Of a stretch of 32,567 nucleotides of DNA, positions 3,043 to 25,021 are shown in pieces. The notes beneath the pieces were generated by a model that was not told where the DNA came from, did not search any database, and saw only the letters and a list, made by a program, of their open reading frames with translations. The stretch lies in IMG/VR virus record IMGVR_UViG_3300030410_000098, positions 1 to 32,567 of that record; one strand, written 5' to 3'. Both the position numbers and the translations under genes were made by a program. This DNA comes from a virus. How positions within the stretch are numbered: position 1 is the first letter of the stretch; the number at the start of each line of letters is the position of its first letter.

Positions 3043-5421
3043 TTAAATGTCCAAGTCTGCTGCCCACTGCCATGTGTATTGATGTCCACTGGTAAATGTC
3101 CAGCCCAACAAAATTCCGCTTTGGCCGCCGTTAATTGAAGCCACGCTAACGTCTTGGCCGATCGAGATATCTCTAACCGAGCCGCTAGCGCCGGTAGCGG
3201 GGCTATAGATAACAAAAGTGGGGATTGTGGGGATTGCGCGTTTTGTCGCCTTAAAGTTAGCTTTGACTGGATATCCACTACCAGTGAATGAGGCGAACCA
3301 AGTTTCCTGTCCATTGGTATCTCCTACGCTTCCAGGGGCGTTAGCTAGGTCACCGGTTTTTTCAAAGTATCTCTGACAGGCGTTTAATTCTTGAGCCAGG
3401 GAAGGATTTTTTCTTTTGAAAGGGGCTATCGCGGCTGCCAAGTTAATATTTGCTTGCTCTACGATAAATCCATTATTTAAATCATAAGTATTGCCTGCGC
3501 TGACTGTGGTAATTCGGATACGAACTCCGATAACTCCAGCGGTTGTCATGCTAGCGCCCAATGCTTGCCCGTTAATCGCACAAGAAACAAAGGAAGCGCT
3601 ATTGACGGTGGTTAGCACCTCAGCGCCGATAAAGACGGTCGGTTTGATTTCCGTTGTTGCGTAGCAAAATTGGATACCGACTTGAGTTACGTTATTCAGC
3701 CCCTTCACTTGCACAGAAAAGGAAGCGGTTTGATTGTAGAGCGCAATCGAGTCAGCATTCTCTAGCACTTGGTAAAATTCACAGCCATTGACTTGAGCTG
3801 CGGTGGGGGCAGTCGTAATCTGAAGCTTAGCCGCGTAGACCGAACCGGTCACTGTGCCCGCCACTCGGCTCGTAGTGATTCTTCCGCCGGTGCCGAGAGC
3901 ATTCTTAATAAACCATCGGTCACAGACGTAGGTGCTTAATCCATTGCCCGCATCAAGGGCAGTAGTGTTTCTCTGCCAAATAGAAAAATCTCCGTTGTAC
4001 AAATAATTATACGAATTGGATGAGGCGGCGCTTAGCGTATTGAGCTGCACTTGAACGTCGGAGGTTGCCGTAGACAGATATCCTAACTGAGCGGCTGTGG
4101 TAGCGGATGCTACAATATTTTTACTACCATCCAAGGCTAACGCTCGGCTAGCGGTAGCTAGAGGGAGTGAGACGTTTTGTGAGCCATCAATAGCGAGTGC
4201 GATTGTGCCATTGGTTTTGAAGTTGATGGGGTTAATCCCAAGCTGAGAGAGAGAGAAACCGCCAGTAAAAAGAGCATTAGAAGTAATTCCGGAGCTAGCG
4301 CTTCCAGCGGAATTTGCGAAAATGTTTAAGTCATCTATCGAAGAGGAAATCCTTAATAGTGACTGAGCGCCGGCGTTGCTCAATCCGTTAGTGACGTTGA
4401 GTAAAGTGGTGCCTATCCAATCCTTTCGCAGCGTAGCGCCTGGGCCATTCCAGTTTATTCTATCGTTTGCGTCTGGGGAGAGAACAAGATCAGCGGAATT
4501 TGCGTTGTTGCGCCAATTAATCGTATCCGCGTTAGCGAGGCGGTGAAGCCCGGTTAGGGAGGGATTTGCGGCGCCTGATTTTAGAGCCCCATTGATAATG
4601 TGAGCTGAGGTGTTTGAGTCAGACCCTAGAGTGACGTGCCCGTCAGTGGCATAGGCTCTAATCGCGGGGCTAGAAAAAGTCGCGCCGTCGGCGATAGTTG
4701 AGGGAGTGATTTCAAAAACGTTATTTGCGGCGTATCCCGAAGCGACCTGCCAATTATAGAAACCGGAAGTCGGACTGTAATAATTAAGACGAATGGCTGC
4801 TGCGGAAGAACCATCGACGCTAGATAACTGAGCATACCCTCGATTAAGTTTGAGAACGGGATTTGAGAAAGTGGTTCCGTCTACGGTTGTAGAGGGAGTT
4901 ACTTCAAACATATCTGAGCTAGTTAATTGTGCGCCCGTCCGCCAATTATAATGCCCTGAGGCGGCTTGGTTTAAATATCTTAGTTCGCCAGCTCCTCCGC
5001 CACCGCCAGTGAGCTCTAAGCTAACGCCGGTATAGGCGATGCCTAGTTTACCGGTCATGGTTCCGCCAGAGAGCGGGAGGAATGCGCCGGCCGTTCCGAA
5101 GGTGAACTGATCAGAGGCATTGATGCCTATAGGTAAATCTAGGGTATTGGCGTTGTTTCTAAAATTGATGGTATCCGTCTTAGAAAGCCTTACGACTCCG
5201 GCCACGGCGGGATTTACTGTGACTGAGGTGAAATACTTTGAAAGAAGTCCGAAAGAGGCGCCAAAATTCAAATCACCGGTGAGAACAAAGTTCCCACCGG
5301 ATTTTTGAATAATATTATTTGTGACGGCCGTGGCCCAGTTCGTGACGTTATCGCCCCAGGTCTGATCCCCCGTATTGGGGAAACTGTAAGCAACGCCATT
5401 GATTACCAGATTGACTGCCAT
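3043..5421 (-). CDS. Tail fibre protein, 792 aa
   Basis: The N-terminus (residues about 10-65) has the tail-fibre pattern FPNTGDQTWGDNVTNWA followed by TGDLNFGASFG. LSGGTMTGKL at about 117-126 is a common fibre motif. Two imperfect tandem modules follow at about 145-193 and 208-257, each containing YNW, FE(V/I)TPST and DG(T/A)TFS(N/S)P. A second internal duplication is T(I)NFRNNAN near 84 and T(I)NWRNNAN near 305. The C-terminal half carries a domain beginning NYLYNGDFSIWQR and the phage-fibre motif LAQELNACQRYFEK, both typical of host-binding fibre tips. A ribosome site (GGAG) lies 9 bases before the ATG. Expected role: receptor binding by the virion. It shares the LGYLS/LGFVSGV...QTQ-type module with the 22662-24146 protein. 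Confidence 0.85.
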   Translation of the reverse strand: MAVNLVINGVAYSFPNTGDQTWGDNVTNWATAVTNNIIQKSGGNFVLTGDLNFGASFGLLSKYFTSVTVNPAVAGVVRLSKTDTINFRNNANTLDLPIGINASDQFTFGTAGAFLPLSGGTMTGKLGIAYTGVSLELTGGGGGAGELRYLNQAASGHYNWRTGAQLTSSDMFEVTPSTTVDGTTFSNPVLKLNRGYAQLSSVDGSSAAAIRLNYYSPTSGFYNWQVASGYAANNVFEITPSTIADGATFSSPAIRAYATDGHVTLGSDSNTSAHIINGALKSGAANPSLTGLHRLANADTINWRNNANSADLVLSPDANDRINWNGPGATLRKDWIGTTLLNVTNGLSNAGAQSLLRISSSIDDLNIFANSAGSASSGITSNALFTGGFSLSQLGINPINFKTNGTIALAIDGSQNVSLPLATASRALALDGSKNIVASATTAAQLGYLSTATSDVQVQLNTLSAASSNSYNYLYNGDFSIWQRNTTALDAGNGLSTYVCDRWFIKNALGTGGRITTSRVAGTVTGSVYAAKLQITTAPTAAQVNGCEFYQVLENADSIALYNQTASFSVQVKGLNNVTQVGIQFCYATTEIKPTVFIGAEVLTTVNSASFVSCAINGQALGASMTTAGVIGVRIRITTVSAGNTYDLNNGFIVEQANINLAAAIAPFKRKNPSLAQELNACQRYFEKTGDLANAPGSVGDTNGQETWFASFTGSGYPVKANFKATKRAIPTIPTFVIYSPATGASGSVRDISIGQDVSVASINGGQSGILLGWTFTSGHQYTWQWAADLDI

Positions 5422-14886: not shown

Positions 14887-15651
14887 CTAGGACCTCATGT
14901 TTTTTACCGGTGAATGTTTCCCACCGCTCAATAATGACCTGGCAATTTGGAGCGCCGTGGTCGGAATTGCACCGCCCTCTCCCACCTGGTTGGTGAGCGC
15001 AACGTTAACTTTGCTTACGACGCGTTTAGGATAAGGTTTTGAAAGTGGGAGAATTCTAGTTCGGACCCTGGCATCCAACGCCATGAGATACCGATGCTTG
15101 CCGTCATTACCAACACGTGATTTCTCAGCCTGAACTCTGGTTAACCGCCTAGCCTTAATCATTGACGAGATGGTCCTCGAATGGACTTTTTCGCCATTAA
15201 TTAGATACATCCGGTCTGGCTGGGATTTTCCTGAATAAATCCAATTACCCGCTTGGTAAATCCCACCCACATGTCCTTCATGTCCTTGATCTGCAAAAGA
15301 CACAACAAGCTTTAGTCCTGGATTTGATTGCTTAAGAAACTTCAGACTCACTGCAATGATTCTCGATACGGAAGTTTCATGTTTAGTAAGTGCTACGCGC
15401 ACAAGTTCACAACCCTCAGTGGATTTTAGCCCGTACCGGCTTACCAGGGACGAAGTTGCACCGACCCCAAAAATGACTACTCCGATGAATCTTCCATTCT
15501 CCCAGACGCCTATTTTCACTAGTTTAGATTTGGGAATACACCGCGAATAATGCCAATTTTCACAAGCGTACCTAGCAGCTTCGTGCGTTGCCCAATCAAG
15601 CCGTAACGAAACTTTCTCCGCACTTAGGACAGGTGATGGGTTTTTTTTCAT
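14887..15651 (-). CDS. Mom-like DNA-modification protein (GNAT-fold), 254 aa
   Basis: The pattern ARYACENWHYSRCIPKSKLVKIGVWENG, then FIGVVIFG, then CELVRVAL, SRIIAVSLKFLK, LVVSFADQGHEGHVGGIYQAGNWIY, matches the Mom-like family. Phage Mu Mom converts adenine to a carbamoylmethyl form that blocks restriction. Key WHYSR and FAD segments lie at about 33-37 and 119-121. The start at 15651 is chosen because AAGGA lies eight bases upstream; longer frames from 15669 or 15717 lack this. It overlaps the ParB-like gene by 56 bases. The C-terminus from about residue 190 is basic. Likely role: protect phage DNA from host restriction. The family call is by pattern; the chemistry in this phage is inferred. 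Confidence 0.75.
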   Translation of the reverse strand: MKKNPSPVLSAEKVSLRLDWATHEAARYACENWHYSRCIPKSKLVKIGVWENGRFIGVVIFGVGATSSLVSRYGLKSTEGCELVRVALTKHETSVSRIIAVSLKFLKQSNPGLKLVVSFADQGHEGHVGGIYQAGNWIYSGKSQPDRMYLINGEKVHSRTISSMIKARRLTRVQAEKSRVGNDGKHRYLMALDARVRTRILPLSKPYPKRVVSKVNVALTNQVGEGGAIPTTALQIARSLLSGGKHSPVKNMRS

Positions 15652-16093
15652 CAAGCTTTCCTTGTTCATCTTCACTACCTGCTTCGAAGTTAGGAACGTC
15701 CAAATCAAATCCTTCAATCCCTAATAGGTCGATATCAAAGTCGGGGCCTAGATCACCCACATCCGCGTTAATCCCTTTGAGGTCTAGCTCCGCCCACGAG
15801 GCAATGGCGTTGTCGGCGGTGATATCCGCATACTCTTGCTCTTCGCTCTCGTACTCTTGAAAGTTGACGGGCACTTCCTCCCAACCGTTTATCTTGGCTG
15901 CGTCAATTCTTCCATGACCTGATGTGACAAAGCCCGAGCGCTTAGACACTTTCACGGGGTACCGCCAGCCCTGATATTCTAAAATCTTGGCTAGCCTATC
16001 TATTTGCTCTTTTGGATGCTTATTTCTGTTTTTTGGGTGAGGTTTAAGTGCGTTTACCGCTACTAATTCATCAAAAGCGCAACAAACCTTCAA
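15596..16093 (-). CDS. ParB-like domain protein with C-terminal CPxCG knuckle, 165 aa
   Basis: Residues about 8-105 are a ParB/sulfiredoxin-type domain: KPHPKNRNKHPKEQIDRLAKIL, then SGHGRIDAAK (GHGR at 59-62), then EEQEYADITADNAIASWAELD. In phages this domain is usually fused to, or beside, DNA-modification enzymes. Here the methylase half is absent: after an acidic linker the protein ends with one CPKCG (155-159) and only six more residues, half of a zinc ribbon. A TTG start overlaps the upstream stop (TTGA). The next gene downstream is the Mom-like enzyme. Possible roles are DNA-site recognition or NTP-dependent help to the modification enzyme. Confidence 0.75.
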   Translation of the reverse strand: MKVCCAFDELVAVNALKPHPKNRNKHPKEQIDRLAKILEYQGWRYPVKVSKRSGFVTSGHGRIDAAKINGWEEVPVNFQEYESEEQEYADITADNAIASWAELDLKGINADVGDLGPDFDIDLLGIEGFDLDVPNFEAGSEDEQGKLDEKKPITCPKCGESFVTA

Positions 16094-19674: not shown

Positions 19675-20448
19675 ATGAAACGGTTTTTTCTTGCGCTCTT
19701 TACCTTACTGTTTTCCTCAAATCTGTTTGCCTCTCCCCACTACGCCACCGGGCTTAAGGTTCCCCAAAATTGGAAACTCCACGCTCGTTTCTCCTCGGGA
19801 ATATTAGGTGTCGATTTTCCGGCTAAGTTTGATTGGAAAGATAAAGAAAATTTACCCCCCATTAAAGATCAAGGTCAGTGCGGAAGTTGCTGGGCATTTG
19901 CTTCTTTGGAGGTACAAGAGGCGTTGATTGCTATCCAAGATAAGAAAATTGAAGCCCTCTCTGCTCAGGAATTGGTTTCTTGCGATAGCTCGTCATCGGG
20001 ATGCTCTGGCGGATATTTCACCGCGTTTGAATATCAAAAACAAAAAGGGCTTACCTACGAAAAAGATTTTTCCTACAAAGCAAAAGATATCCGATGTGAT
20101 GTTTCCTCTCTCTCTCACGACTATCGGATATTTGATTGGGGATATATCGGAAGCACTAGCCAGAGCCCTTCAGTCGACGAAATCAAAGCGCAGATTTTTG
20201 CAGGCGGACCGGTGACAGCCACCGTTTGTGCAGATAACCGATTCATGAATTATCACTCGGGAATATTCAGCGGAAACGCCGGCTGTCAAAATCACATGAT
20301 CGTTCTCGAAGGTTGGGATGATTCATCGCAAAGCTGGTTGCTTAGAAATAGCTGGGGAATTAAATGGGGCGAAAAAGGCTTCATGCATATTAAATATGGC
20401 TCGAATTCCGTGGCCCAAATCGCTGCCTTTGCAGTGTATAAGCACTAA
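19675..20448 (+). CDS. Exported papain-family (C1A) cysteine protease, 257 aa
   Basis: A Sec signal peptide (residues 1-19, MKRFFLALFTLLFSSNLFA) is followed by a short linker and a complete papain fold: oxyanion Gln66 and nucleophile Cys72 in DQGQCGSCWAFA, the CSGGY motif (110-114), catalytic His207 in QNHMIVLEGW and Asn225 in LRNSWG. Four or more Cys positions fit the usual disulfides, which suits a periplasmic or secreted enzyme. Only about 30 residues separate the signal from the domain, so the usual long inhibitory propeptide is missing. It reads on the plus strand against its neighbours, with its own promoter. The start codon follows AGGGGGGG and a small GGGC-TTCA-GCCC hairpin. Papain-like enzymes are rare in phages; possible roles are envelope lysis, defence against other bacteria or phages, or host fitness. 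Confidence 0.93.
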   Translation: MKRFFLALFTLLFSSNLFASPHYATGLKVPQNWKLHARFSSGILGVDFPAKFDWKDKENLPPIKDQGQCGSCWAFASLEVQEALIAIQDKKIEALSAQELVSCDSSSSGCSGGYFTAFEYQKQKGLTYEKDFSYKAKDIRCDVSSLSHDYRIFDWGYIGSTSQSPSVDEIKAQIFAGGPVTATVCADNRFMNYHSGIFSGNAGCQNHMIVLEGWDDSSQSWLLRNSWGIKWGEKGFMHIKYGSNSVAQIAAFAVYKH

Positions 20449-21025: not shown

Positions 21026-21073
21026 TCAATGCAAGCACATAGTTCCTTCACAATGCCTTGCGATAATAAGGTT

Positions 21074-21481
21074 ATGCGGTGCCTCACCCTAATCCTAATC
21101 ATCCTACTTTCTGGTTGCTCCACCCTCCCCAAGGAGAGGGCCTTTGCGCCATACCTCGCAGCGTTTGAGCAAGAAAGTGGGCTCGTGGCCCAAATCGCTT
21201 TCTCCTTTGGCGTGACAAGACACCTAGACGAATATCAGGTGGATGCGGTGGCGGAATGTGTGCCGGGGAGTTGGTCAAAACGGCCCGAGGTGAAAGTGAA
21301 CCTCGAAGCGTGGAAGAAACTTTCAGACGACGATAGGCTTGTTCTCATTTTTCATGAATTAGGGCATTGCCAATTCTCGAAGATGCATGGAAAGGGATTG
21401 ATGCAACCAGCGCTTTTAAGTGGGAAGGAATTTCGAAAACACCGAGAGGCGCTACTCGTTCTCTACAAAGTCACAAATTGA
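21074..21481 (+). CDS. Lipoprotein zinc metallopeptidase-like protein, 135 aa
   Basis: The signal and lipobox are MRCLTLILIILLSGC (Cys15). A longer frame begins at 21029, but the n-region from 21074 is the usual length and AAGG lies just upstream. The zinc motif HELGHCQFSKMH (His94, Glu95, His98, probable third ligand His105) is followed by GLMQP, which matches the pattern HELGHCxxxxxH...(I/L)MxP of a small group of putative bacterial metallopeptidases. It reads on the plus strand and overlaps the convergent RusA gene by 30 bases. It is probably anchored in the outer membrane. Substrate unknown. Confidence 0.75.
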   Translation: MRCLTLILIILLSGCSTLPKERAFAPYLAAFEQESGLVAQIAFSFGVTRHLDEYQVDAVAECVPGSWSKRPEVKVNLEAWKKLSDDDRLVLIFHELGHCQFSKMHGKGLMQPALLSGKEFRKHREALLVLYKVTN

Positions 21482-21878: not shown

Positions 21879-22646
21879 TTAGGGAAGGTTCCATTTGGCT
21901 TTCCAGTAGGTATCAATATTAGTCACGAATGAATTTCCCGTTCCCGTATCAATCGCCCACTCGCCGATATCGCCGATCCAAGCAGTGAAGTTAGCTCCGT
22001 TGTCTTTTGAAATATTGAAATTCGTGGTTTTTATAATTCCACCCGCCTGAGTAGTGGTGCTTGCAGAAACCGCATTGATGTAAATCGTAGCCAAAGGCGA
22101 AGTATCTAAGGTGACACACACGCGGTACCACGTGCCAGTCACAATGCTTCCCGCACCTGTGGGTGCTCTCGATCCTACCCCGTCATACCAAAGGTCTAAC
22201 TTATTTGCGCCGGCACCCACTTCGAGAGTCAGCGCATTGTCGGCTATCACTAACCCATGCATTAAGAGTGCGTTGAATTGAGCGAGCGAAGAGGCTTTTG
22301 CCAGCGCGCATTCGGTCCCGATAGTAAGGTTGGTTCCGCTTGCGCCAGTGAGATAGGTTGAAGCGGCAAACCGACAAGTCGAGAGTCCATTTTGTACCGA
22401 GGTGACTAACGTTGGGGCAGTCGCACTTGCCGTCCAGGTATAAGCGTTAGGCGATTTATCGGTGACGGTGGTGATATTTGAACCGCTGACCGCTACTTTT
22501 GTTGGGTCACTGCAATCTCCCCAGCCTCTTAGGTTAGCGGATGAAAGAGGCGTCCATAATGCGGGAGAGAGATTAAGCAGTCTCCGGTTGTCGGCGGCTG
22601 AAAGGGCGGTGGTTAAGATTAAAAAGAGAAGAATAAATTTTTGCAT
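21879..22646 (-). CDS. Secreted LamG/lectin-like protein, 255 aa
   Basis: A Sec signal peptide (MQKFILLFLILTTALSA) is followed by a beta-sandwich pattern: LRGWGDCSDPTKV, then VTDKSPNAYTW, then LDLWYDGV and TGTWYRVCVTLDTSPLATIYIN, as in LamG/concanavalin domains of phage fibres and adhesins. It ends with GNSFVTNIDTYWKAKW. Normally such domains lie in fibres without a signal; here export is predicted. The ribosome site is weak. It lies after another signal-bearing tail-like gene. Confidence 0.7.
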   Translation of the reverse strand: MQKFILLFLILTTALSAADNRRLLNLSPALWTPLSSANLRGWGDCSDPTKVAVSGSNITTVTDKSPNAYTWTASATAPTLVTSVQNGLSTCRFAASTYLTGASGTNLTIGTECALAKASSLAQFNALLMHGLVIADNALTLEVGAGANKLDLWYDGVGSRAPTGAGSIVTGTWYRVCVTLDTSPLATIYINAVSASTTTQAGGIIKTTNFNISKDNGANFTAWIGDIGEWAIDTGTGNSFVTNIDTYWKAKWNLP

Positions 22647-22661
22647 GTGCTTGTACGTTTC

Positions 22662-24146
22662 TTAGTAATTAAGTGACGATGTGCAGAAATAAGATGTCCC
22701 ATCGTAGTAACAAGAGACAATGTCTTGCTTATTGGCGCCTGAACCGGCGGGAGCAGTTCCGCCTGACCATTTTACGCCGGCTGGCCAAATGTAAGATCGA
22801 CTTCCCGTCGCATCTTGCACTAAGTGAAACACGTAGCTTCCTCCGATAACCGGATTAGAAAAAGTAAAAGTGACGTTTGCCGTGGCCGTGGCTTTTTGTG
22901 ATGCGCAATTGGAAAGGTCTAAAGTGAGAGCCGCTCCGGTATTGCCTGCGTTATTTTCGCAGGGTTCAAGATGGTAATTACCAAAAGTGACTTGAGTGGT
23001 GAAGGAAGGGCTTGCCGAGGGGGCTTTGGTATTGATTTGGGTTTGAATCGCGGAACTAACGCCGCTAACAAAGCCCAGTTCCACGGCGGTAGTGGTTGCA
23101 GAGACGAGGTTACTCGAGACATCAGTAACTACCGCCCGAGAGAGGGTCAAGGCGGTTCCTATGGTTCCTGTGAAAGCTGGGGATGCCTTAGGGGCTAGTA
23201 ACCCAATCTGCGTCTGCAAAGCTGAAGTAACACCGGAAACAAAACCTAATTCCGTTGGAGTCACTGCGCTGGAAGTGAGCTGCTTAGTTCCATTGAGATA
23301 GGGCACCGTGGTGGCGGTGAGAACGGAAAAAACCGGAGAGGCCCCGGTTAAAGTTAAGTCGATACCTAAGGTTTGCGCCCCGGTTGCTTTGACAAGCCCC
23401 CTAGCAGTGCCCGAGGCGGAGGGGAGATTAAAAAGATGATTTCCCGCCGCGTTGTCTACCACGGCAAAATCAGTCCCGGCTAAGCCTACGGTTAGAGTCT
23501 GCGCGGGAGTAGCATCGGCATTGATTTGAGTGACATTGCCCGTTCCTGAAGCGGTTGCCCACCGGTTTCCGCAAGCTTGCGCACTATCAGCAGTAAGGAT
23601 TTGACCGTTCGTGCCCACTCCCAAACGACAATCCGAGGTTGCACTGCGCGTATAGATATCCCCCTTTGCCGTAAGAGGGGAAGAGCCACCACCACTACTG
23701 GCTATCGTCGAAGAATCGACAATATAGAGATAGGCTGCACCTTGCGCGGAAACCACCGAGTTTCCGGTTAGGGTGAAGGTGTAGCTTCCAGCTAGAAATA
23801 CCTTCGGATAGATCTGCGCCGTTAGCGAGGCGGAGAGAGACGTTAGCGCACTGTTTAATGCATCTAAAGACGCTCCCAGTGGATCTACAAAGGTAATGCC
23901 GTAACTTGCCGTAGGAGCGGGGCTGGCCGGGACAGTGATGGCTTTCATCACATGACCGGAAAGATAAATCGAGGTGGCCGGAACAGAACCATCCGCCGCA
24001 TCACCCACCCAGGCAAATTTTACAACCTCGACGGACTTTGGAGCGCTTTGCTTACTGAATTCCGTAAACGATCGGGTGACCGTCACAGATCCTACGGCGA
24101 GAGCTAACTCGCTTAGGAAGAGACAAGATAACAAGAGACGTTTCAT
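22662..24146 (-). CDS. Tail-fibre-like protein with Sec signal peptide, 494 aa
   Basis: The signal peptide (residues 1-17, MKRLLLSCLFLSELALA) precedes typical fibre sequence: SPLTAKGDIYTRS...RLGVGTNGQILTAD...W (about 156-197), two copies of a module with ELGFVSGV(T/S)SA(L/I)QTQI at about 299-314 and 356-371, each followed by KA(P)SASP-like spacing, and the C-terminal fibre motif TFTFSNPVIGGSYVFHLVQDATG...WPAGVKW...YYDGTSYFC. AAGGA lies eight bases before ATG. Fibre proteins assemble in the cytoplasm, so an export signal is unexpected. Cys residues could form disulfides outside the cytoplasm. Confidence 0.8.
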   Translation of the reverse strand: MKRLLLSCLFLSELALAVGSVTVTRSFTEFSKQSAPKSVEVVKFAWVGDAADGSVPATSIYLSGHVMKAITVPASPAPTASYGITFVDPLGASLDALNSALTSLSASLTAQIYPKVFLAGSYTFTLTGNSVVSAQGAAYLYIVDSSTIASSGGGSSPLTAKGDIYTRSATSDCRLGVGTNGQILTADSAQACGNRWATASGTGNVTQINADATPAQTLTVGLAGTDFAVVDNAAGNHLFNLPSASGTARGLVKATGAQTLGIDLTLTGASPVFSVLTATTVPYLNGTKQLTSSAVTPTELGFVSGVTSALQTQIGLLAPKASPAFTGTIGTALTLSRAVVTDVSSNLVSATTTAVELGFVSGVSSAIQTQINTKAPSASPSFTTQVTFGNYHLEPCENNAGNTGAALTLDLSNCASQKATATANVTFTFSNPVIGGSYVFHLVQDATGSRSYIWPAGVKWSGGTAPAGSGANKQDIVSCYYDGTSYFCTSSLNY

Positions 24147-24172: not shown

Positions 24173-24367
24173 TTAAATAAGTTTATCGATGTGAGTATCC
24201 AAAGCTTGGATGGCCGCCTGTGCGGTTCCTTGCTCTGCATGGCCAGAAAGCCATTCAACTATTTTTTCTAAAATTGGTTTGATGCCGGGATATCTTGATT
24301 CTAAAAAAGACACGCCCAATTTTAACGCAATCTTCCCCAGGAACTCCGCCAATGGAAGCCACCACAT
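24173..24367 (-). CDS. Small amphipathic protein, 64 aa, possible lysis component
   Basis: GAGGA lies seven bases before the ATG. MWWLPLAEFLGKIALKLGVSFLE could be one weak membrane helix or an amphipathic helix; the rest (IKPILEKIVEWLSGHAEQ) is helical. Position directly after the endolysin suggests a holin or antiholin, but the hydrophobicity is marginal. Confidence 0.5.
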   Translation of the reverse strand: MWWLPLAEFLGKIALKLGVSFLESRYPGIKPILEKIVEWLSGHAEQGTAQAAIQALDTHIDKLI

Positions 24368-24390: not shown

Positions 24391-24792
24391 TTAGCAGGAA
24401 ATTTCTAAACCCCAGCGCGCCATATGTCCCCTCACATCCAAATGCGTGAATTTTAAATATACCCCGATACCACCATCAGAGAAAACCGAGATTCGAGATG
24501 CGGCTTTTCCTACCGCAACCGGAGTCGCATTCTCAGACTCTACGTCCGATGCTTTCCCTTTTATATGCTGCGAATCGGGTACCCCACCCACTTCTCGATT
24601 ATGCGAAGCGCAACGAAAACCACTTGTGATTTTAGGTTTCCCTAAGATGTCAGACAATTCTTCAAGACCTGAGATTAGAACTTCGTCAATCAGCGTCTTG
24701 TCGCACTCTACCTTTTCGCAATGACAATCAAAGTCGGTTGATAAGAAACTTCCCAGTGGAATTGGTATTCCTTTTCCGAAAATGCGAACCAT
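24391..24792 (-). CDS. M15-family peptidase endolysin, 133 aa
   Basis: The pattern ITSGFRCASHNREVGGVPDSQHIKGKASDVE and FTHLDVRGHMARWG matches Peptidase_M15_3. The zinc and catalytic residues are His76, Asp83, His117 and Asp119. These enzymes cut peptide cross-links in peptidoglycan. AAGGGGG lies six bases before the ATG. There is no signal peptide, so a holin is needed for its release. It overlaps the membrane-protein gene upstream by 65 bases. Confidence 0.85.
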   Translation of the reverse strand: MVRIFGKGIPIPLGSFLSTDFDCHCEKVECDKTLIDEVLISGLEELSDILGKPKITSGFRCASHNREVGGVPDSQHIKGKASDVESENATPVAVGKAASRISVFSDGGIGVYLKFTHLDVRGHMARWGLEISC

Positions 24793-25021
24793 ACGACACC
24801 CCCTTGCTTAGACAACAATCATGCCCTTTTGGCATATTATCGATTGTCACTTTCATGACCGCTACGCTTTGCCTTAGCTCCCAAACTATTTCTGATGTCG
24901 CGTCTAATTTATCCACGAGACGTTTTACAAAATATACGTTCCCCGCAAACAAGATGCTGAGCACAGATCCTACCCCGGCGACTAGCAGCCGTTGAATGGC
25001 GAATGATTTTTCTCTGGTCAT
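24728..25021 (-). CDS. Single-helix membrane protein beside endolysin (holin or inner spanin candidate), 97 aa
   Basis: After a basic start, one membrane helix (LLVAGVGSVLSILFAGNVYFV, about 12-32) is followed by a charged helix (KRLVDKLDATSEIVWELRQSVAVMKVTIDNM). It follows the ejection-protein stop by three bases and overlaps the endolysin start by 65 bases, the usual place for a holin or inner spanin. The C-terminus is Cys- and Lys/Arg-containing. Topology fits either role. Confidence 0.6.
   Translation of the reverse strand: MTREKSFAIQRLLVAGVGSVLSILFAGNVYFVKRLVDKLDATSEIVWELRQSVAVMKVTIDNMPKGHDCCLSKGVSYGSHFRKRNTNSTGKFLINRL

Follow-up and report, generated by a model that had tools for sequence, protein, structure and literature searches.

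The gene at positions 22662 to 24146 (minus strand) of the window, meaning here the entire IMG/VR virus record (32,567 bases), very likely encodes a genuinely Sec-exported fibre-type adhesin, as judged from its sequence. Together with the LamG gene that follows it, it appears to make up an exported adhesin cassette of two genes, which closes the lysis module. The cassette is probably stabilised by disulfides, and in our best reading it would act late in infection, beyond the cytoplasm. The usual assumption is that tail fibres fold and are assembled within the cytoplasm. It seems that some phages pass fibre-type adhesins through the cell membrane and do not build them onto the virus inside the cell.

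The fibre gene begins with a canonical Sec signal peptide

The first-pass annotation of this DNA gave the coordinates and the strand of the open reading frame correctly. The predicted protein of 494 aa is composed of a signal peptide (aa 1-17), a domain assigned to no family (aa 18-155), a LTAKGD repeat (aa 158-198), a stalk (aa ~200-390) and a tip (aa ~386-494). The region coding for the signal peptide, MKRLLLSCLFLSELALA, spans 24096 to 24146 (minus strand). Its ATG is preceded by the Shine-Dalgarno sequence AAAGGA, and an in-frame stop is found 13 codons upstream. The only other starts that would drop the hydrophobic segment are GTG codons 21, 47 and 66, which have a poor Shine-Dalgarno context or spacing, and the ATG at codon 67.

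According to a rule-based call, the N-terminus combines a KR n-region and a hydrophobic core with an A-L-A cleavage motif between MKRLLLSCLFLSELALA and VGSV, so that all three regions (n, h and c) of a cleavable Sec signal are present at the supported start. The signal calls made throughout this study follow a simple rule with a background of 18 in 500 ORFs (3.6%). The best 8-residue Kyte-Doolittle mean was 2.94 at the N-terminus, compared to a maximum of 1.82 elsewhere in the protein, and none of 20,000 random N-termini with the composition of the fibre matched its hydrophobic core. We therefore reject a hydrophobic N-terminus arising by chance. The cleavable-type signal ending in ALA that had been noticed before is thereby confirmed as a canonical Sec signal peptide at a well-supported ATG.

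The body of the protein is that of a phage fibre

The fibre motifs described earlier proved to be genuine, as repeat, stalk and tip all match phage tail or fibre proteins. Residues ~158-198 (the LTAKGD...QILTADSA repeat) match minor-tail proteins of other phages, while residues ~200-390 match virion-fibre stalks and carry 'TELGFVSGVTSALQTQI' repeats. The tip (aa 386-494) found matches in 183 named phage records, mostly annotated as tail fibre or minor tail among the matches listed. The window protein therefore contains a stalk and a tip homologous to those of phage tail-fibre or virion adhesin modules. The tip is also the only confidently modelled part of the fibre. In a fold comparison of the tip, its model resembled a capsid spike, T4 gp9/gp10 and CBA120 TSP4 (Z 4.5-7, where values below 8 may mean a common fold only), with 9ny6 at Z 7.0 (rmsd 3.0, 91 aligned), and the leading eight rows were all phage adhesion or baseplate proteins. 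The 138-aa domain at aa 18-155 yielded an unusable model (pLDDT 30) and no match among phage proteins, PHROG or local sequences. A comparison of the fibre to PDB sequences resulted in a chance match only, and none of the exported fibres showed a recognisable domain for attachment to the virion. The signal peptide argues against assembly of the fibre in the cytoplasm.

Homologues of the C-terminal tip occur on ordinary fibres, including Arthrobacter phage Jinkies gp36, cyanophage SS120-1, Caulobacter phage S2B gp010c and DSL-LC06 WKW35115.1. In contrast to the window protein, these fibres lack a signal peptide (6/6 named phages checked), and the conserved tip cysteines of the window fibre were not seen among the tip ends listed.

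The window phage encodes a separate virion fibre

A signal-free virion fibre of 792 aa is encoded at 3043 to 5421 (minus strand). It has an N-terminal domain common to related phages and is placed like the virion fibre of the relatives, between the capsid and connector genes. Since the phage possesses this separate fibre, the exported one is additional. The two proteins have only a short stalk repeat in common (49 aa at 43%), and their tips differ. We therefore reject the earlier view of a 'secreted copy' of the virion fibre. What stands of it is a fibre-type protein behind a Sec signal, which is very probably secreted because the signal peptide is genuine. The idea that it serves as a decoy is weakened as well, because its tip is unlike that of the virion fibre and a common receptor is thus not implied.

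The fibre gene is paired with an exported LamG gene next to the lysis module

Directly downstream of the fibre gene lies a partner gene of 255 aa (21879 to 22646, minus strand), whose product starts with a signal peptide of its own, MQKFILLFLILTTALSA, continues with a concanavalin A-like/LamG domain (Laminin_G_3, 1.8e-9) and contains four cysteines in its mature form. Upstream of the fibre gene and on the same strand are a 64-aa ORF of no family (24173 to 24367, minus strand), the peptidase M15 endolysin of the lysis module (24391 to 24792, minus strand) and a putative small holin-like membrane protein (24728 to 25021, minus strand). As scans of the window for promoters and terminators gave little beyond chance, we infer co-expression of the cassette with the late lysis genes from strand and spacing. 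A tyrosine integrase was found neither in the window phage nor in its close relatives, which speaks against a role in lysogenic conversion. We set aside a pure lysogenic-conversion gene as less likely, given the missing tyrosine integrase and the location on the same strand as the late genes.

A homologous cassette occurs in an otherwise unrelated phage

We identified a single full homologue of the window fibre that bears a signal, in IMGVR_UViG_3300020219_000008 (G001), with about 50% identity over aa 204-487 and conservation of C396 and C414. Its signal, MTKFSLVYLLCFALQVSSFA, is unrelated to that of the window fibre, and in the mature protein the stalk begins straight after it. The next gene encodes a LamG protein with its own signal, again unrelated to that of the window. 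In G001 the pair is located on the strand opposite the structural genes. The first-pass annotation had suggested comparing start sites among homologues, and this one full homologue also starts at a signal peptide and not downstream of it. Apart from an ERF-type gene, G001 shows no further relationship to the window, so the signal-bearing two-gene cassette is common to two otherwise unrelated phages.

Among 80 viral loci matching the stalk, signals were present only in G001 and one further locus (L071), and the other full-length proteins (about 68-70) start as ordinary fibres. In DSL-LC06, the fibre with the window tip is likewise followed by a LamG gene, neither of them with a signal. Fibre and LamG therefore represent an ordinary pair, both members of which bear export signals in the present case. 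Neither the LamG gene nor a 654-aa protein, used as queries, found a match in viral contigs. The MCP and fibre alignments detected no relative in bacterial genome contigs, and plasmids gave no match.

In G001, a 5' segment, AAGGAAAAATATGANAAAGTTCTCTNTTGTTTATCTT, is repeated ahead of two cassette genes (L002, positions 2216 and 4779), the first copy being frame-disrupted. Recombination thus seems to shuffle the starts that encode signal peptides.

Exported genes and truncated virion fibres occur in related phages

Searches with capsid and terminase recovered a close group (G002 and G004-G007, capsid 63-74% identical) plus a distant group. The cassette is absent from the close group, which represents the nearest core relatives. 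Among named phages, a clear relationship that extends over terminase, portal, capsid, connector and tube was seen only for CP017838, a phage of Silvanigrella aquatica. Its terminase matched with an E-value of 3e-33 (next best about 1e-4), and of 50,697 phage records none but this one matched the tube protein. Silvanigrella belongs to the Bdellovibrionota and has Bdellovibrio as a relative. The identity of about 25-27% to CP017838 suggests a host from this group for the window phage.

Within the late operon of the distant group, signal-bearing low-charge genes are located between portal and scaffold in G009 and G014-G017, a position that hints at a role in the virion more than at the shielding of receptors. 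Further signal-bearing genes lie between capsid and connector in G014 (331 and 198 aa) and G015 (307 aa), and near the endolysin in G016 (545, 684 and 835 aa, the last from a GTG with a good ribosome-binding site). Fibre-like genes with export signals were found in G014, G015 and G016, and G009, G012 and G014-G017 encode small exported beta proteins. Overall, low-charge fibre-like ORFs carried a signal in 12/56 cases versus 32/499 (P = 6e-4). The virion fibre gene of G014 and G015 is a 141-aa stub with a conserved N-terminal motif, directly followed by signal-bearing fibre genes, and that of G016 is an 82-aa stub (loci L126, L128 and L130, respectively), while other relatives keep full-length fibres.

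An exported fibre-type protein of 1253 aa, annotated as hypothetical, was also detected in phage ctLpZ231 (MW202444.1, UOF76952.1), where its gene lies downstream of that for the central tail fibre J. Like the window fibre it is a long low-charge fibre with a signal, and the two have the repeat and a stalk segment in common (36% over aa 160-314). Unlike the window phage, ctLpZ231 has an integrase, and its protein has a different N-terminal part and a YCSDC tip.

The exported proteins are rich in cysteines

The mature exported proteins contain 60 cysteines in 5,090 aa (11.8 per 1000, or 11.2 when the GTG-started gene of G016 is left out), as compared to 3.6 per 1000 for those structural proteins of these phages that lack a signal and 2.3 for homologues lacking one. 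Even cysteine numbers were observed in 12 of the 14 exported proteins that contain any. Members of the exported set are not independent, and with families collapsed both the contrast in cysteine content (P = 0.058) and the excess of even numbers (P = 0.055) are suggestive only. A signal is present on every one of the seven low-charge proteins whose tip has the motif tGxIxxCxxC. After cleavage the window fibre has six cysteines, two of them within the LTAKGD repeat. The cysteine form of this repeat, C-R-L-x-V-G-T-N/D-G-Q, had no exact match in other viral contigs (2.9 million searched). Cysteine richness and even numbers are as would be expected for proteins of a disulfide-forming compartment.

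Possible roles of the exported fibre

We propose that the fibre would be made late in infection and pass through Sec with loss of its signal, that the mature protein would trimerise and form disulfides in the periplasm, and that it would be freed at lysis. The exported fibre has no obvious anchor or attachment domain, which speaks for a soluble product. For the subsequent step our committed guess, which we hold tentatively, is that soluble fibre and lectin bind glycans or receptors of the host envelope at and after lysis. Adsorption to the dying cell and its debris could thereby be blocked, keeping progeny and rival phages off. Such shielding might be functionally analogous to T5 Llp, though by a different protein, a parallel we draw with the same reserve. 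Llp is a phage-encoded periplasmic superinfection-exclusion lipoprotein that controls receptor availability and contains a disulfide (PMC9586334). In contrast to the window protein it is small and no fibre, and it acts on FhuA from the periplasmic side.

It is almost as likely as the shielding step, if still doubtful in itself, that the exported fibre is a virion component, which folds in the periplasm and docks onto released virions only once lysis mixes the compartments. The arrangement in relatives speaks for docking, with the 141-aa stubs of G014 and G015 ahead of signal-bearing fibre genes and the 82-aa stub of G016. So do the exported 1253-aa fibre of ctLpZ231, which occupies the usual fibre place, the exported genes within the head operon of relatives, and the window tip, which is a virion-fibre tip. 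On the other hand, no recognisable virion-attachment domain follows the signal, the mature G001 protein leads straight into the stalk, the window phage already encodes a complete fibre that lacks a signal, and the literature searched provided no precedent. A more specific proposal, which we consider rather improbable, is that the virion fibre of this lineage is outsourced: its distal part would be exported through Sec, fold and form disulfides in the periplasm, and join a cytoplasmic virion stub at lysis. If this were true, there would be tailed phages with a two-compartment assembly route.

An improbable explanation is that the phage carries, or has donated, an adhesin displayed on the surface of a predatory or commensal host, as known for the mosaic adhesive trimer (MAT) fibres of Bdellovibrio bacteriovorus. 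These phage-fibre-like proteins work outside the cell and consist of a signal peptide, a beta-rich domain of about 130 aa, a stalk and a variable tip (PMC10769870). The window fibre, with its signal, 138-aa domain, stalk and tip, has a similar layout, and the nearest named relative by terminase and tube infects Silvanigrella aquatica. Against such a role, the window phage has no tyrosine integrase that would indicate a lysogenic stage, the fibre has no sequence match to solved chains, the model of aa 18-155 reaches a pLDDT of only 30, and the host assignment derives from about 25-27% identity. MAT fibres also differ in being encoded by a bacterium and displayed on the predator. The fold comparison, which covered the tip, returned no MAT structure, and the Pfam scan returned no match to the S74 family, NS74 MAT tips being diverse by definition. 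The least probable reading is that no export takes place, the hydrophobic segment lying outside the true reading frame or being a non-functional relic. While a signal-free protein could start at GTG codon 21 and most fibre homologues start without a signal, the ribosome-binding site is good at the ATG and badly spaced at GTG-21, the G001 homologue and the partner gene of the window carry independent signals, and the cysteine pattern of the exported proteins speaks against this reading as well.

A further phage tail-fibre-like adhesin that acts outside the cytoplasm is PblB of streptococcal prophages, for whose pneumococcal form a signal peptide is predicted (PMC4508584). PblB differs from the window fibre in that it derives from a Gram-positive prophage, has different domains, is released by lysis and binds to other bacteria (PMC4508584). 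Judged by sequence features, the window fibre appears to have traits in common with MAT fibres, PblB and T5 Llp, and we place it in none of these systems. In the literature searched, phage fibres with signal peptides were nowhere described as a class, an absence that is no proof. Exported fibres with signals, paired cysteines and sometimes a truncated virion fibre beside them would represent either a new use of fibres, in extracellular shielding or surface adhesion, or a new assembly route. Such fibres may also be a phage-side counterpart of the exported MAT fibres, and the only named relative found for this lineage infects a bacterium of the Bdellovibrionota.

Further genes in the window and its relatives

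Two genes for predicted peptidases are located on the plus strand of the window. One encodes a cysteine protease of the papain family (C1) that carries a signal peptide (19675 to 20448), on the strand opposite the late genes. The other encodes a lipoprotein-like small metallopeptidase (21029 to 21481, PhageMetallopep 4.4e-5) near the exported cassette. In the close relative G002, the endolysin is followed by a C1 protease that is larger and has a lipoprotein-like signal. The 684-aa signal-bearing protein of G016 (L129, 8047 to 10101) gave a weak match to the glycoside hydrolase 123 N-terminal domain and is possibly an exported phage glycanase. A Mom-family DNA modification gene (14887 to 15717, minus strand; Pfam Mom 1.1e-46) adjoins a ParB_N-like ORF and probably serves anti-restriction modification. 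Finally, in CP017838 (L118) a block that includes the terminase and its neighbours is apparently repeated at about 21.1-25.3 kb and 30.3-34.4 kb, perhaps because of the assembly or because a prophage end is duplicated.
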